Source of the DNA: an uncultured Succinatimonas sp.
GTDB taxonomy: Bacteria > Pseudomonadota > Gammaproteobacteria > Enterobacterales > Succinivibrionaceae
DNA length: 50,829 nucleotides
Direction: 5' to 3'
NCBI GenBank assembly: GCA_900317105.1
Contig: ONFP01000009.1
Coordinates: forward strand, 1-50,829
The notes under the pieces are model-generated. The model had not been told where the DNA came from and did not search any database. It was given only the letters and a program-made list of their open reading frames with translations. The position numbers and the translations under genes were made by a program. Below are positions 13,362 through 22,900 of the stretch, one piece after another (the first letter of the stretch is position 1; every line of letters begins with the position of its first letter).

Positions 13362-14438
13362 ATGGAAGATTTAATTATTATTCTTGGACTTTTGGCGGTA
13401 ATTGCCGTCTTACTAAATCAGTTTAACTACAGACTGGCTCTGTGCATGTTCCCTGATACAGTCAAAGTAACCAGGTGGCAGGGACTTTTAGGCTGGTATG
13501 GATGGGTTAACCTGTTTGTTGCTCTTCCTTTCCTGTGGGATGGTGATTTCTCACAGGGTATGTATCCTCTTGTCATTGGACTGATTCCTGCAGCTATTTC
13601 AATTTTTACTGTGTTGAAGTTTAATGATGACAGAAATGTTGAGCTGCGTCGTGACTCAAAGATTACTTATGATGACAACGGTCAGCTTTTAGAACCATGC
13701 AACGATGTTTACGGTTTCCTTCGTAATTATTCTCAGCGAATGAAGGCAATCGGTCCAAAGTTTTTCTTTAAAGAAATATTTGCCCGAGAAAAATCTAACA
13801 AGGTTTTAGCTGACGGATTACTGGATAACACTCCAGAAGTGACAGTGGATACACTAAAATCTTTACCATGGGTTATTGATGGCGCTGTTGATGTAAAGGC
13901 TCAGTTTATCTTCCTTCTTGAGTACATGACAACTCGCTATGACAACAAGAAACTCTATGAGAATCTTAAGGTGTTCTGCGAGAACTCCATGTCAGTTGCA
14001 AGATTGCTTGAGCTTAAGTTTAATGAGATTCCATACAATATCGCAAAATTTATCGCATCAGCCGATATGACCGTATCTCTTGTTGAAAAGAAGTCCTCTG
14101 TATTTACGATTTCAGTCGAAGGGCAGACTTTTGAGGATACAGAGAAGGTAATATACGTAAGCACCTCCCCTATGTATAAAATCAATCAGAACTTAAGTTC
14201 AGTATTTCGCGCAATAGCTGCAAAATTCAGTAAATGGACTTCAAAGGATGAAGGAACTGTTATTCTGACCTCAAAGAAGATTATTGTAAAAACTCCATAT
14301 CAGAAGACCGAATTTCCGATCAGCGACGCTGTTTTTTCATTCGGAGACGACATTTCTTTTGATAATTCTAATTATTTTTGTGTGTCAGATATTAATTTTT
14401 TCAGATTTGTGATGTTAAATCTTAATAAAACACTATAG
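13362..14438 (+). CDS. Membrane protein of unknown function, first gene of the zinc-finger cassette
   Basis: I do not recognise this 358-residue protein. Three hydrophobic segments are visible near residues 3-22, 44-60 and 69-88, followed by a soluble region of about 270 residues, mixed alpha/beta, with no known catalytic motif. The C-terminal part is rich in beta-like segments. Without a cleavable signal peptide, it is probably an inner-membrane protein with a cytoplasmic domain. A modest Shine-Dalgarno (ggaag) precedes the ATG. It begins 100 nt after hrpA behind its own promoter and ends 39 nt before the first of two zinc-finger membrane proteins, so the three are likely one operon. Confidence 0.75.
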   Translation: MEDLIIILGLLAVIAVLLNQFNYRLALCMFPDTVKVTRWQGLLGWYGWVNLFVALPFLWDGDFSQGMYPLVIGLIPAAISIFTVLKFNDDRNVELRRDSKITYDDNGQLLEPCNDVYGFLRNYSQRMKAIGPKFFFKEIFAREKSNKVLADGLLDNTPEVTVDTLKSLPWVIDGAVDVKAQFIFLLEYMTTRYDNKKLYENLKVFCENSMSVARLLELKFNEIPYNIAKFIASADMTVSLVEKKSSVFTISVEGQTFEDTEKVIYVSTSPMYKINQNLSSVFRAIAAKFSKWTSKDEGTVILTSKKIIVKTPYQKTEFPISDAVFSFGDDISFDNSNYFCVSDINFFRFVMLNLNKTL

Positions 14439-14477: not shown

Positions 14478-16193
14478 ATGCAGCCAGAAAAAGAAAATCC
14501 TGATAAAAAGGATAAAGCCAAGGTTACACCTGAAAAGAAATCTCCTCCATCATCTGCTGCTATACCTCCTACGGAAGCTGTAGTTGATGGAAGCAAGGCG
14601 AGAGAAGCCGCGGCTTTAGAGGTAAAGAATGTAGATTTTGCAAGAAAGCTGAATTCCATTGTTTCAGCAATTTTTTCTCGCTGCGGTGTTCCTATTGCTG
14701 ATTTCACTGTCTCAGAACCTCTCTCTTTTTTCGCTAAGGTTAATTACAATCTTACCTGGAATTTCAAATGCCGAGCTTCAGACAAGCCTGCAGGTAAGAT
14801 CAGTGACGAAACACATGTTCTTTCCCAAAGCGGTCTAGATGAATTTACTCAGAAAAATTCCAAGGAGCTTGAAAAGGAAAGCGATATAACTAAAGCCTAC
14901 ATCAAGCGTCTCGCCGAAGCTAAATTTACTGAACTGACTGCTTTGGCTGGCCAGATTATGGCTTTTAACCGTATTTCTGCTATTGGTAGGGCTCGTTGCA
15001 AAAAATGTCATGGTAGTAAGAAAGCCATGTGCGAGGTCTGTAATGGCAAAGGTGTAATTTCATGTCCAACATGTCAGGGGCTATCAGACAGCTGCTCCAT
15101 GTGTAACGGTACCGGCTTCATCAACTGTGACCACTGTAATGGCTCAGGAAAGGTTGTCTGCCGTCACTGTAAGGGAATGGGAGAACTTATTGTAGAGCGT
15201 GAGATTATTTATGATTCTGAGAGCTGTAAGGATATAGAAATCTCTCTAAATGTTCCTGGTTCTGATAAGACTATTACCTCTTTCTCAAAAGAGGATGAGA
15301 AGATTATTTTAGAGGCTGCGAACTTTGATGATCAGTCTTTAGGTTCGGAACTGCCTCATGGATATAAGGCCACTTTCATAGGTTATGCTCCATGTTTTGC
15401 GGTGAGAGTTAACTTGAAAGGAGAAACTACGCCTTTTGATTTTATCCTCTGTGGAAAATCCCTAAAACCAATCTGTAAACCTCCGCTTTTAGACGTGGTC
15501 TTTAAAGAGGAGTCAAATATTCTTTCATCAACCCTGAATATAGGCACAGATGATGTCGACGAAAAGATTGTCTGTGTTAAGGCTCTTGCGGGAAAGGCAA
15601 TCCTGGCAAAGACCATTCGTTCAATTGAGAATTACGAGCTTGATATTATCAAGAAGGAAGCCGCAAAGCAGGGCGTTACTGTTGAATCTATTCTCTGGGA
15701 AAACAAGAATGACTTAAATAATAAGGCCAAGCTCATAAAATCAACGGTAAAAGAACAACTTATAGAGAATGTTTCCCTTGAACTTATATCCAATGCCCAA
15801 GGCTTTATCTCAAAGGAATTCTCAAGATATTTTGCTAAGAATCTGATTGATTTTGTGCCATTGCTGATGATGCTAAATCCAAACACCAAAACGGTTTGGA
15901 CTGCTGTTTCTCTTGCGGTGTGGCTTGTTAATTCTCTTGCTGTTTATTTCGTGCCAACTATTGCCTGTATTTTTCTGTGTATTGTTTTATCCATTGTGGT
16001 ATGTGCTTTTACCTCAATTACTCTTACTAAGAACTGGACATACTATTCTGCGGTAAGCTCTCTTAGAATCAGGCACAAACTACGAAAGGTTCCAAATCTT
16101 ACATCCGAGGCTATTCATTCTGTGCGTCTGCTTTTTGGCACGATTCTTATTAATGTTGTTCTCTTTATCCTTTATAACTACCGAGGCTGGTAG
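14478..16193 (+). CDS. Membrane protein with DnaJ-type cysteine-rich zinc finger, no J domain (paralogue A)
   Basis: This 571-residue protein starts with a Pro/Lys-rich tail (1-35). At about residues 173-232 it has six CxxC motifs (CKKC, CEVC, CPTC, CSMC, CDHC, CRHC), several followed by xGxG as in the DnaJ/Hsp40 cysteine-rich domain. DnaJ has four such motifs. There is no J domain and no HPD motif, so Hsp70 stimulation is not expected. A long middle region (about 235-450) follows, then hydrophobic segments near 460-515 and a last one near 545-565, so it is membrane-anchored at its C-terminus. It is a paralogue of the next gene, 17 nt downstream. The function is unknown; a zinc- or redox-dependent protein-binding role is possible. 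Confidence 0.8.
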   Translation: MQPEKENPDKKDKAKVTPEKKSPPSSAAIPPTEAVVDGSKAREAAALEVKNVDFARKLNSIVSAIFSRCGVPIADFTVSEPLSFFAKVNYNLTWNFKCRASDKPAGKISDETHVLSQSGLDEFTQKNSKELEKESDITKAYIKRLAEAKFTELTALAGQIMAFNRISAIGRARCKKCHGSKKAMCEVCNGKGVISCPTCQGLSDSCSMCNGTGFINCDHCNGSGKVVCRHCKGMGELIVEREIIYDSESCKDIEISLNVPGSDKTITSFSKEDEKIILEAANFDDQSLGSELPHGYKATFIGYAPCFAVRVNLKGETTPFDFILCGKSLKPICKPPLLDVVFKEESNILSSTLNIGTDDVDEKIVCVKALAGKAILAKTIRSIENYELDIIKKEAAKQGVTVESILWENKNDLNNKAKLIKSTVKEQLIENVSLELISNAQGFISKEFSRYFAKNLIDFVPLLMMLNPNTKTVWTAVSLAVWLVNSLAVYFVPTIACIFLCIVLSIVVCAFTSITLTKNWTYYSAVSSLRIRHKLRKVPNLTSEAIHSVRLLFGTILINVVLFILYNYRGW

Positions 16194-16210
16194 ATCTGGA
16201 GCTGTGGCAG

Positions 16211-17755
16211 ATGCATGAGAATATAATAGAAGTCATTACAAAGATGCTTCAGAGCGTGGATGTCCCTCCTGATATGGTCAGTTATGGAGAGTCCAGAACT
16301 GCCGATGTAAAACTTACCTTCAGTGTTAACTGGTTTTTTGAGGCTAATGTCAGGGATACTGTTCTTAATTCTGTGATGTCCTCTGATACAGTCTTGAGCG
16401 AAGATGCCTTAAAAGATTTTCAGAAAACTAATACAGATGCTCTTTTAAAGGATGCTAATCTTAAAAGAACATTCTGTACGGGACTTGAGAACAAATCTGC
16501 AGCTGATCTCTTCAAGATCTGCAATAAGATAAACCGCATTTCCGCCAGACATGCCAAAGGTGGCTGTACTTGTCCGTCGTGTAAGGGAACTAAAAAAATC
16601 AGTTGCCCTAACTGTTCCGGATACGGCATGATTCTGTGCCCATCCTGTCAGGGAAGGGAAGGAGGATGTACCAGATGTAATAAAACCGGTTATATATCCT
16701 GTCCAACCTGTAACAATCTTCAGAAAATTGTCTGTCAGAACTGTAAGGGCAAGGGTAGAGTTCTGGTTGATAGAATGGTGTGTCTTCTGGCGAGAAACTT
16801 TCCTGTTATTGATGTAGAAGTTCAGAACATGGAGAATGTTTTTGCTATACCAAATTGCCACGTGGATTATGCCTGCTATTTTGAACTGCTAAAAAAGCTA
16901 CCTTTTAAGCTCATTGATGCAGAGTTTAAGGAAAGCGGAGTTTTTCTTATTACCTATGTAGCAGAATGTAGAATGGACTACGTAACTTTTGATATCTCAA
17001 AGGTTTCTAAAAGCTTTTCATTCTATACCTGTGGAGATAATTTCACTCCGCTGAATATTCCTCCTGTTCTAGAGAGTATCTACAGTGATCTTAAAATGAA
17101 GCTCTCTGATGCAGCTATCGGTAACACACTTACTGATATGGATACTAAGATAGAACTGTTCAAGACGCTTTGTCAGAATAGGTTCTTCTATGGGCTACTG
17201 TGTTCCTTTGAATTTTATTTTGATCTTGTAACACGCAAGCTTCAGAACGAAGTTGTAAAAACAGATAATTACACATCAAAAATCTTTACCATGAGAGAAA
17301 AGCTTCAGAGTCTTATGGCTTATAGAAAGGAGCAGCTTGCCGATGAGTTAAGTAAGAAGCTTTTAATGTCAACAAATAACCTGATGAAGGAGAATTTTTC
17401 TAAGGATATCTGTCTGTCTTTAGTTGAATATATCAGTAATCTCAAGTTCAGAGAGCATTCCGGCAGACATTACTGGGATATGGTAACCTCCTTTATCTGG
17501 GTAATTACTTTCATGCTAAACTTCTTTATCCACAGTCCGGTTAATCTTGTTGCCTGTATACTATTTGGTATAGTAGCCTCTTTTCTTGTTGCATACTTTG
17601 GAACTAAAACGCTCAAGTTCTACGAAGTGATGCTGGCCTCAAAAACTTTTGAAAATATAACCAAGTTCATTGATTTTAATTACGATCTGTCCAGATCTAT
17701 AGCCCTGTTGTCAGGAACTCTGATTATAGAGATTATTACATTTGTTGTAACTTAG
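16211..17755 (+). CDS. Membrane protein with DnaJ-type cysteine-rich zinc finger, no J domain (paralogue B)
   Basis: This 514-residue protein shares the layout of the gene before it: an N-terminal domain of about 115 residues, six CxxC motifs at about 120-178 (CPSC, CPNC, CPSC, CTRC, CPTC, CQNC), a middle region, and C-terminal hydrophobic segments near 430-470 and 490-514. It lacks the charged N-terminal tail of paralogue A. There is no J domain. The conserved order and spacing of the CxxC motifs and the shared C-terminal membrane region indicate gene duplication, followed by marked divergence outside the finger. The gene ends at a bidirectional terminator and is probably the last of the cassette. 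A heteromeric complex of the two is an attractive but untested idea. Confidence 0.8.
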   Translation: MHENIIEVITKMLQSVDVPPDMVSYGESRTADVKLTFSVNWFFEANVRDTVLNSVMSSDTVLSEDALKDFQKTNTDALLKDANLKRTFCTGLENKSAADLFKICNKINRISARHAKGGCTCPSCKGTKKISCPNCSGYGMILCPSCQGREGGCTRCNKTGYISCPTCNNLQKIVCQNCKGKGRVLVDRMVCLLARNFPVIDVEVQNMENVFAIPNCHVDYACYFELLKKLPFKLIDAEFKESGVFLITYVAECRMDYVTFDISKVSKSFSFYTCGDNFTPLNIPPVLESIYSDLKMKLSDAAIGNTLTDMDTKIELFKTLCQNRFFYGLLCSFEFYFDLVTRKLQNEVVKTDNYTSKIFTMREKLQSLMAYRKEQLADELSKKLLMSTNNLMKENFSKDICLSLVEYISNLKFREHSGRHYWDMVTSFIWVITFMLNFFIHSPVNLVACILFGIVASFLVAYFGTKTLKFYEVMLASKTFENITKFIDFNYDLSRSIALLSGTLIIEIITFVVT

Positions 17756-19979: not shown

Positions 19980-22900
19980 ATGCATAGGTTAAAAAAAGTC
20001 ACCTTAGAAGTGACAATGGGTCTTTTTATATCGTTATCTGCATTTTCTGCAGATGATGATGGTACTTTCACCATTACAATTCAAGGCCCTGAAGTAGAGG
20101 AAACCGTTCCTGCCAGTCGCCCAGTTCGTACTACTCCTAGAAGACAAGCTGTAATTCCTCAGCAGGCTCCTGCTGCAACTGTTGCCCCTAGACAGTCAGC
20201 ACAGGCTCCTCAGCGTGCGGTTGCAGTTCCTGCTCAGACTGCTGTTTCATCTGATCAGTTCAGAACCTATAACGTGGTATCTGGAGATACCATCTGGTCT
20301 GTAGCTCATCGTTATGCTCAACTTAATAGAAGTATTAACGAATTTCAGGTAGTTGCCTCCATATATAGAAATAATCCTCAGGCTTTTGGCGGAGGAAATG
20401 TAAATAATCTTTTAAGAACAACTCTGAGAATCCCTTCTGATGCTCTGATAGCACAGGAAAATACTCAGACCGGAAGTGCTCTTTTAGCTCAGGGAGTCAT
20501 GACCCTACCTCCTCTCCCTGTAAGTCAGCCTGCAGTAAGTCCAACTGTTCAGAGTGCTCCTGCTCCTCAGTTGCCTCAAACTGCTCAGAGTCAAGTACCA
20601 TCACAGCAGACAGTTACACCTGCTAATACCGGTAAACCGGCAAATGATATCCCTGTTTACACTGCAACTGAAACTAGAATCAAGGAAGTTCAGAAACAGC
20701 GTGAAGCTGAAGAAAACGGTGAACTGATTCCATCTGGACTTTCCAATAAGGACTCTCAGAATCCTAACGACAGACGTACTCTTGCTGAAAACGGAGCTCA
20801 GCTTCAGCTTGAAAATGGCGCTGTAACGGAAAATGTCGCCAATGCTCCTGTTCAGTGGCAGGGACAGGGTCTGGGCTTAACCCCTGAACAGCTAAGACAG
20901 GTTCAGGCTCTTCTCAAAAAGAATCCTCAGGAATCTGTAGATGTTAAGTCTATTCGCATCATGCTTGAGGAAAACAAAAAGCAGATCGATCAGAAGACTA
21001 AGGTTATTGAGCAGCAGCTTTCAGATGCTATTGCCAGAATGAAGAAGTCGTCTGCTGTTACTGCTCAGACCGCAGCTGACAGTGTCTCCTCTCTATCAAG
21101 TCAGTACGATAACATTATCGCAGGTATTCAGCAGGATCTTATTGAAATCAAAGGTAATGTGTCAAAGCTCTCTCAGGATAATGACCGTATGAGAGAAATG
21201 CTTCTGGCTAATGACGAAAAAATTGAGGATATGCAGTTGCAGATGTCTCAGTTTACAGTGTCATCTGTCGATGCAAGCATTGATATGGATAAGCCTGTGA
21301 TGATGATCCTGTTTGGAGCAGGTTTATTGTCATTGGTAATTCTGATTCTATTCATTATCTTCAAGGCCAGAGCCCGTGCTCGTGCTCGGAAGTATCATGA
21401 TGACTTTGACTTTGATGATGCAGGATCATTAGGTTCAGATGATATGCTGTTATCTGATGATAATGGCTCGATTGCAATTGAAACTCCTTCTCCTGACATT
21501 GACGAAGGTGATGCGTATTCAGAGGAGCAAGCTGCTGATAACAACGCTGCTCCTGCTGCTGATGTAGAAATTTCACCAGCCGCTGCATCTGATACGGCTG
21601 ATAGCCCTGCTGATGAGAGTACAGAAGATTCTCAGGCCCAGGCTGAGTGGGATAAGGCAGCTGAAGAATCTGCTGAGCCCTCAAGCAATGATCAGAATGT
21701 TCTGGATGAATGGTCAAATGCTCTTAATGAAGATCAGTCCGGAGCAAAAGAAACTGAGGTTGAAGGCAAATCAGATGATGCAAGTGTTGCCGACGAGTGG
21801 GCTGCTGCTTTAGGTGAACAGGAAAAATCAGAAAAGGCCCAAGAAGAGTCATCAGATGAGCCTAAGAAAGATGAACAGGAAGATATGGCCGCAGCGTGGG
21901 CTGCAGCTCTAGGTGAACAGGAGGGAGGTGCTGAAGAGGAAAAAACAGCGGATGATCCTGCTACTCCTGCAGAAGAAAAGTCTGGCGGTGATGAACAGGA
22001 AGACATGGCCGCAGCCTGGGCTGCTGCTTTAGGTGAACAGAAAGGTGGTGAAGGGGCTACTTCTGAAGAGCCTGAGGCTAAGGAAAATACTGAGTCATCA
22101 GAACCCGCTGAAAGTACACAGGCTGAAGAACTGAAGAAATCTATTGAGGCTGCTAAGGCTGAACCTGAAAAGTCTGCTCCCGCAGAAGAAGCTGTTTCTG
22201 AATACGTAAATATTGAGGATATTGCAGCAGAAGCACCAGCAGAAGAGGCTGTTCCTGAAGACGTAAATATTGAGGATATCGCGGCAGAAGCACCAGCAGA
22301 AGAGGCTGTTCCTGAAGACGTAAATATTGAAGATATCGCGGCAGAACCCCCAGTAGAAGAGGCTGTATCTGAAGACGTAAATATTGAGGATATCGCGGCA
22401 GAAGCCCCAGTAGAAGATGCTGTATCTGAAGACGTAAATGTTGAGGATATTGCAGCAGAAGCACCTGCTGAAGAGGCTGTATCTGAAGACATAAATGTTG
22501 AGGATATCGCGGCAGAAGCTCCAGTAGAAGAGGCTGTATCTGAAGACGTAAATGTTGAGAATATTGCAGCAGAAGCCCCAGTAGAAGAGGCTGTATCTGA
22601 AGACGTAAATGTTGAAGATATTGCAGCAGAAGCACCTGCTGAAGAGGCTGTATCTGAAGACATAAATGTTGAGGATATCACAGCATCAGCACCAGCAGAA
22701 GAGGCTGTATCTGAAGACATAAATGTTGAGGATATCACAGCATCAGCACCAGCAGAAGAGGCTGTATCTGAAGACGCAAATGTTGAAGATATTGCAGTAG
22801 AAGCACCTGCTGAAGATGCAGTTCAGGATCCTGAAGAACAGGAGATTGATGTCGGAGATCTTGTCCAGAATGAAGGTGATGACTTAGCTTCTCCTGCAGA

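Follow-up and report, generated by a model that had tools for sequence, protein, structure and literature searches.

Tandem Succinivibrio membrane proteins with six CxxC motifs are candidate J-less relatives of the DnaJ and BSD2 zinc hairpins

Introduction

Type I J-proteins such as DnaJ combine a J domain (PF00226), a cysteine-rich central domain (PF00684) and a C-terminal domain (PF01556). A DnaJ-type finger also occurs in J-less proteins, among them BSD2, which carries four CxxC motifs, and ORANGE (OR), which has membrane segments. These are the described systems closest to two adjacent genes of a rumen-type bacterium of the genus Succinivibrio, named here A and B, located in a 50,829-nucleotide stretch of the forward strand of contig ONFP01000009.1 (GCA_900317105.1), which is referred to as the window. 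Published reports describe the zinc region of DnaJ as contributing partly to polypeptide binding and as having weak thiol-reductase activity (PMC4428491), and BSD2 as a small plastid protein of about 8 kDa with a hairpin that holds two zinc ions, each by four cysteines, and binds RbcL8 (PMC5859369). Other reports give four CxxC motifs for ZnJ2, an algal relative of BSD2 that prevents aggregation and is reported to have no oxidoreductase activity under reducing conditions (PMC5818400); a membrane-anchoring region for FIP (PMC5915565); and the term DnaJE1 chaperones for the OR proteins (PMC12063368). Among the titles and abstract beginnings listed in searches of the open-licence literature, no account of a bacterial or six-CxxC J-less or ladder form was found, which is no proof of novelty.

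Proteins A and B share with BSD2 (PF25436, 6ekb) the lack of a J domain and may share its cysteine-rich CxxC hairpin, which in A and B is predicted; BSD2 is the best fold match of A and also the best match in the Protein Data Bank to the array of a remote relative with four plus four motifs (genome G029, E 4.5e-5). Unlike BSD2, A and B have six CxxC motifs, a large platform and membrane helices. The likeness to DnaJ lies in a CxxCxGxG cysteine-rich region and in a family profile remotely similar to the DnaJ zinc domain 1exk. DnaJ has four motifs with unequal gaps (for example 17, 22 and 14 in the DnaJ-like open reading frame (ORF) L181), whereas A and B have six at an 11-residue pitch, are membrane-anchored, and lack both the J domain and a match to the C-terminal domain. 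The ORANGE and FIP-type plant proteins of the DnaJE class are plastid proteins that resemble A and B in their J-less DnaJ-type finger and in having membrane segments or a membrane-anchoring region.

Results and discussion

Organization of A and B

Gene A (positions 14478..16193, plus strand) encodes 571 residues and gene B (16211..17755, plus strand) encodes 514. The AlphaFold model of A has a low-confidence N-terminal tail (residues 1-37), an alpha/beta platform, the cysteine array, a beta/helical part and C-terminal membrane helices, and B has the same architecture. The array of A (residues 174-231, positions 14997..15170, plus strand) has CxxC motifs starting at residues 174, 185, 196, 206, 217 and 228, and that of B (residues 121-178, positions 16571..16744, plus strand) at residues 121, 132, 143, 153, 164 and 175. 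The gaps are 11, 11, 10, 11 and 11 in both, and each array would hold three zinc sites. The two proteins align nearly end to end with 122/522 identities (E 9e-50) and are thus paralogues. The preliminary description of two adjacent genes, each with six CxxC motifs in the same number and order, C-terminal membrane segments and an otherwise diverged sequence, was correct in its coordinates and is confirmed.

The modelled membrane helices of A (residues 470-491, 495-516 and 542-569) are encoded at positions 15885..16184 of the plus strand (residues 470-569), and those of B (417-439, 443-464 and 490-513) at 17459..17749, also on the plus strand (residues 417-513). Simple hydropathy detects two membrane segments in A (491-509 and 548-566) and three in B (432-450, 446-464 and 496-514). 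The array, within the long N-terminal part, is predicted to lie in the cytoplasm because the loop before the last helix of A is basic (six lysines or arginines vs one aspartate or glutamate), which by the positive-inside rule would place that part inside.

Identity between A and B is 47% in the array (35% without the shared cysteines) vs 15-20% elsewhere: 17% in the N-terminal part, and 14.6, 19.5 and 18.8% in the three parts C-terminal of the array. The suggestion that selection acts on the finger is therefore borne out between the paralogues. Among close orthologues it stands for B alone, in which the non-synonymous divergence (dN) is lower in the finger than elsewhere; in A it is not lower, and finger-specific constraint by this measure was discarded for A. 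The ratio of dN to synonymous divergence (dS), omega, is 0.016-0.061 in every part for which it could be computed (10/12 comparisons), values that are rough since dS is often >1.

Relatives of A occur on contigs of S. dextrinosolvens (93 and 91% identity) and in a Succinivibrio metagenome-assembled genome (95%, over part of the protein). With 18 additional genomes of the genus searched, the close family is present in 17/19 Succinivibrio genomes (E<=1e-10). Six motifs are present in 30 of the 32 close-family ORFs with an array, and four in the remaining two; this count leaves out the DnaJ ORFs and the divergent 764-residue protein of G001 (L056), which also has six motifs but a long centre. Because the six motifs are conserved, the array is not a product of chance. 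When 369 genomes sampled from the class were searched, with at most three candidates scored per genome, 74 gave matches at E<=0.001; those outside the own genome, the one that contains the window, span the finger region only, and most of them lie in open frames about as long as DnaJ. Within 56 genomes of the bacterial family Succinivibrionaceae, remoter relatives were found in other genera (G029, G028, G429, G020 and G437).

Pairing of the motifs

The models of A (mean predicted local distance difference test score, pLDDT, 82.7; array 84-90) and B (mean 85.3; array 69-83) contain short strands between motifs 1 and 2, 2 and 3, 4 and 5, and 5 and 6, and long flanking strands. The short strands of A (E182-184 and E193-195 opposite E214-216 and E225-227) and of B (E129-131 and E140-142 opposite E161-163 and E172-174) deviate from mirror symmetry by no more than about two residues. 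In the alignment, both tandem copies of genome G017 have kept motifs 2-5 and jointly lack motifs 1 and 6. A midpoint-rooted tree with long outer branches, calculated from the residues outside the array and with G020 and G437 left out, places the G017 copies inside the six-motif clade, with support values of 98/91 for their grouping with G008, 91/88 and 99/98 above it, and 98/96 for all 30 rows. Since the copies are nested in that clade without the help of array columns, the simplest reading would be one loss that took one motif from each end.

A third zinc site in A and B is likely in view of the symmetric spacing, the strands and the fact that motifs 1 and 6 are missing together, and the nested three-site anatomy is held with high confidence. 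Each zinc ion would be bound by one motif from either arm, motif i together with motif 7-i, giving the pairs 1-6, 2-5 and 3-4. The preliminary description had considered a third site to be new for this type of domain; the anatomy speaks for the site, but arrays with four or five motifs per arm exist elsewhere, so the addition is not unique to these proteins.

Spacing of arrays in remote relatives

The number of motifs per arm varies among relatives while the spacing of the arms is nearly constant. The arrays are 4+4 in G029, 3+3 in G001c, G429 and G437, and 2+2 in G020; six proteins of the G791 type have 4+4, a small protein of G156 has 5+5, and other small proteins have 2+2. In 27 collected arrays the centre spans 10 to 44 residues and the arm pitch is 11, apart from a single 10-residue gap in G156 and a further CxxC that precedes the array of G028 by seven residues. 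With the array defined mechanically, the spacing is an exact palindrome in 25/27, and G028 and G156 are the exceptions. That count leaves out canonical DnaJ-like ORFs, orthologues of A and B other than the window's own, the small ORF L131 and the plasmid matches H11-H16; L136, L141 and L143 gave no array ORF.

Ten arrays from plasmids and phages were added, from 10 of 16 matched records, and the motif number is even in 33/37 of the combined set. When the gaps were shuffled within arrays, an equally good result was obtained in 0/20000 trials for all 37 arrays, 1/20000 for 19 family representatives and 0/20000 for the eight membrane-type representatives; these figures are not probabilities of independent events because some of the arrays are related to one another and a query of 11-residue pitch had been used to collect many of them. 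Viral contigs searched with the G029 array gave 13 stretches with the pattern, none of which was confirmed, and in alignment A3 no stretch was sufficiently conserved for such a search.

On balance, these regularities suggest a general, extensible zinc ladder, of which the cysteine-rich domain of DnaJ type would be the version with two rungs: an antiparallel hairpin with a pitch fixed at 11 residues and an unconstrained central loop, in which one CxxC per arm would be gained or lost at once. Two to five rungs are seen, perhaps nine in Halobaculum, and the Succinivibrio pair would be a three-rung, membrane-anchored form. The interest of the finding lies chiefly in this rule. If it is true, the zinc finger becomes a modular element whose sequence reveals its length, the zinc stoichiometry of unannotated bacterial, archaeal and large-phage proteins could be predicted, and natural variants with two, three and four rungs could serve to study the role of each zinc site of DnaJ. 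For Succinivibrio, the finding points to a conserved, uncharacterised unit of membrane-protein genes.

The collected arrays include several proteins of unusual size or composition. The Halobaculum plasmid proteins (L200:1931-4351, L202:1868-4306 and L209:1868-4306), which are annotated as hypothetical, have 806-812 residues and 18 CxxC motifs in a 7 / 4 / 7 layout, and their genes sit between those for a GMC oxidoreductase and an alpha-1,4-glucan-protein synthase. The 120-residue protein of G156 (L124:5880-6242) consists almost entirely of its 5+5 array. Three uncultured phage records without annotation (L206, L207 and L208, of 634780, 642428 and 636363 bases) encode 10, 9 and 14 CxxC motifs near C-termini.

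Array proteins with 496-560 residues, a central array and two to four hydropathy segments that are mostly C-terminal, as in A and B, are present in G791, G904, G855, G916, G905 and G937. We take these genomes to belong to other families of the same phylum, Alphaproteobacteria being a guess. The G791 profile matches the Succinivibrio family from motif 4 onward (probability score 98). The arrays of these proteins differ from those of A and B in being 4+4, the central gap measuring 15-19. The sole repeated neighbour among the scanned genes is UvrA, adjacent or one gene off in 2/6.

Relationship to known families and proposed function

The Pfam search was listed to E<=10, and HMMER filters drop most matches above about 0.1. 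Within that range neither A nor B has a listed match to the J domain or to DnaJ_C, whereas the DnaJ of the own genome (L057) scores 97.5 bits with PF00226 (cut-off 27.8) and 176.9 bits with PF01556, and its J, central and C-terminal domains are all detected by the same library. The absence of a J domain given in the preliminary description is thus confirmed, and no Pfam or NCBIfam family matches A or B above its cut-off, so that neither finding named there as a refutation, a J domain or a known family with the six motifs, was obtained. The anti-TRAP (RtpA) models give 9.4 and 12.7 bits for PF15777 (cut-off 32) and 9 and 15.2 bits for NF058604 (cut-off 65), all below. In PHROGs, A matches phrog_37414 (E 1.2e-5) and B has no match, and the proteins of G029 and G791 match phrog_28723; both are families of unknown function. 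In a survey of 398 genomes of the phylum, BSD2_CRD had no match above its cut-off and matches below it in 18/398. Sequence profiles reach a chain named Embryo defective 2737 (E 9.5e-5) and, at E 7e-4, the zinc domain of DnaJ (1exk), and the best Foldseek match of A is BSD2 6ekb (E 0.018, probability score 0.97, 59 columns), with no other sensible match.

We lean towards the view that A and B, J-less and anchored in the membrane, are related to the zinc hairpin of DnaJ and BSD2, with three nested zinc ions and a role in holding or assembling a client at the inner membrane. A long antiparallel hairpin is predicted to protrude from a cytoplasmic beta platform, which about three C-terminal helices would anchor in the membrane. 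Pinned by three structural zinc ions, the hairpin would be one rung longer than that of DnaJ or BSD2 and, by analogy with BSD2, may act as a rigid protein-binding arm. A and B, perhaps in a hetero-complex with a 358-residue membrane protein encoded upstream, might hold or assemble the client; because they have no J domain, they would be unable to recruit DnaK in the usual way. The holding or assembly role is suggested by analogy with BSD2, ZnJ2 and the DnaJ zinc region, and a membrane-tethered, DnaK-independent holdase or assembly clamp is put forward tentatively, as a possibility of somewhat less than even chance.

Several observations weigh against this interpretation and against the ladder. 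The DnaJ-type label of the preliminary description is weakly supported by profile: PF00684 gives a weak 16.1 bits for A, below the cut-off of 32.7, and is unlisted for B, and BSD2_CRD (PF25436) gives 13.1 bits for A and 7 for B, below the cut-off of 27. The match of A to 6ekb is weak (template modelling score, TM-score, 0.35 by target; root-mean-square deviation 9.0); no Foldseek match at E<=0.001 was found for either model, and those of B are chance-like. The rung pairing is drawn from the predicted strand pattern, the joint absence and the spacing. The four-motif case probably represents one event in two copies, and it comes from a genome that is 59% complete, on a 3.2-kb contig from which both ORFs run off the ends, with both arrays inside. 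When array columns are included in the tree, the long-branched 2+2 protein of G020 joins G008 and G017. Among the plasmid and phage arrays only 2/10 are exact palindromes; 3/10, the Halobaculum proteins, in which two gaps of 15 residues lie symmetrically around a central gap of 10, are off by one residue, and 5/10, from Rhizobium, Streptomyces, Azospirillum and two large phages, are not palindromic. L203, L207 and L208 count as failures because their CxC and CxxxxC variants are not counted as motifs. Shuffling of the eight plasmid and phage representatives alone gave an equally good result in 2896/20000 trials, which is not significant. The scanned neighbours of array genes in other genera differ from those of A and B, and the 358-residue family profile detected no member next to the array genes of G006, G007, G008 and G013. 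No intrinsic terminator was found near B, in scans that gave 0 terminators vs 3.6 expected and 16 promoters vs 15.7 expected.

The same evidence bears on three other explanations. Pairing of motifs 1-2, 3-4 and 5-6 would make the arrays tandem ordinary zinc ribbons, that is, three independent small fingers that possibly bind nucleic acid. A uniform pitch also suits a string of identical units, and the anti-TRAP models match weakly, although below cut-off. However, ribbons predict the loss of neighbouring motifs, yet motifs 1 and 6 from opposite ends are absent together; they predict no special midpoint, yet the spacing is palindromic in nearly all of the 27 arrays; and the modelled strands are nearly mirror-symmetric. 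This explanation is regarded as very improbable. Hsp33 works by a redox and zinc-release logic, and an array that frees zinc and forms disulfides under oxidative stress could likewise switch A and B on or off. The twelve cysteines per array and the weak thiol-reductase activity of the DnaJ zinc domain (PMC4428491) are in keeping with such a sensor, but structural four-cysteine sites would account for the fixed 11-residue pitch and for the paired absence of two motifs, and no sensor or redox gene is present among the scanned neighbours. The redox switch raised in the preliminary description gained no support, with the array placed in the cytoplasm by charge bias and two motifs missing as a pair, and it is considered quite improbable.

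It is also conceivable, although unlikely, that A and B are a DnaJ-like scaffold with no chaperone role, in which the zinc hairpin merely stabilises the fold or mediates dimerisation of A with B. The lack of a J domain and of a DnaJ_C match is compatible with this, as are the occurrence of the close family in Succinivibrio and the restriction of the class-sample matches outside the own genome to the finger. By contrast, purifying selection along the whole protein and the conserved order with the 358-residue gene argue for a specific partner, but not for holdase activity as such.

Gene neighbourhood

The 358-residue membrane protein (positions 13362..14438, plus strand) has two hydrophobic segments within residues 1-85 and no Pfam or NCBIfam family above cut-off. 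Its gene, A and B follow one another with operon-like spacings of 39 and 17 nucleotides, and it adjoins A upstream in 10/10 A-bearing genomes with flanking sequence. The unit lies downstream of hrpA. After B, the opposite strand carries an HPr-type gene and the IHF-alpha gene, beyond which are an aspartate-semialdehyde-dehydrogenase-like gene, below the equivalog cut-offs, and a FimV/HubP gene.

Gene neighbourhood was considered as a guide to function and set aside: the 358-residue gene accompanies A and B, but a DUF285 protein is found near the array genes of G006, G007 and G008. The array gene of G008 sits between hrpA and fimV, as A and B do, and its DUF285 neighbour has a hydrophobic C-terminus. 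The DUF285-repeat proteins near the array genes of these three other Succinivibrio genomes (L041:11640-12785, L042:4258-5397 and L049:3565-4698) have a hydrophobic C-terminal end. A glycerate kinase gene (L042:8321-9502) is positioned between both array genes of G007, and, by eye, ORFs that flank the array genes in G006 and G013 resemble it. The FimV/HubP-like gene of the window contains a 57-bp repeat in 11 copies (positions 22182-22816, 89% matches), and the length of its product varies from 1258 to 1336 residues among close strains.

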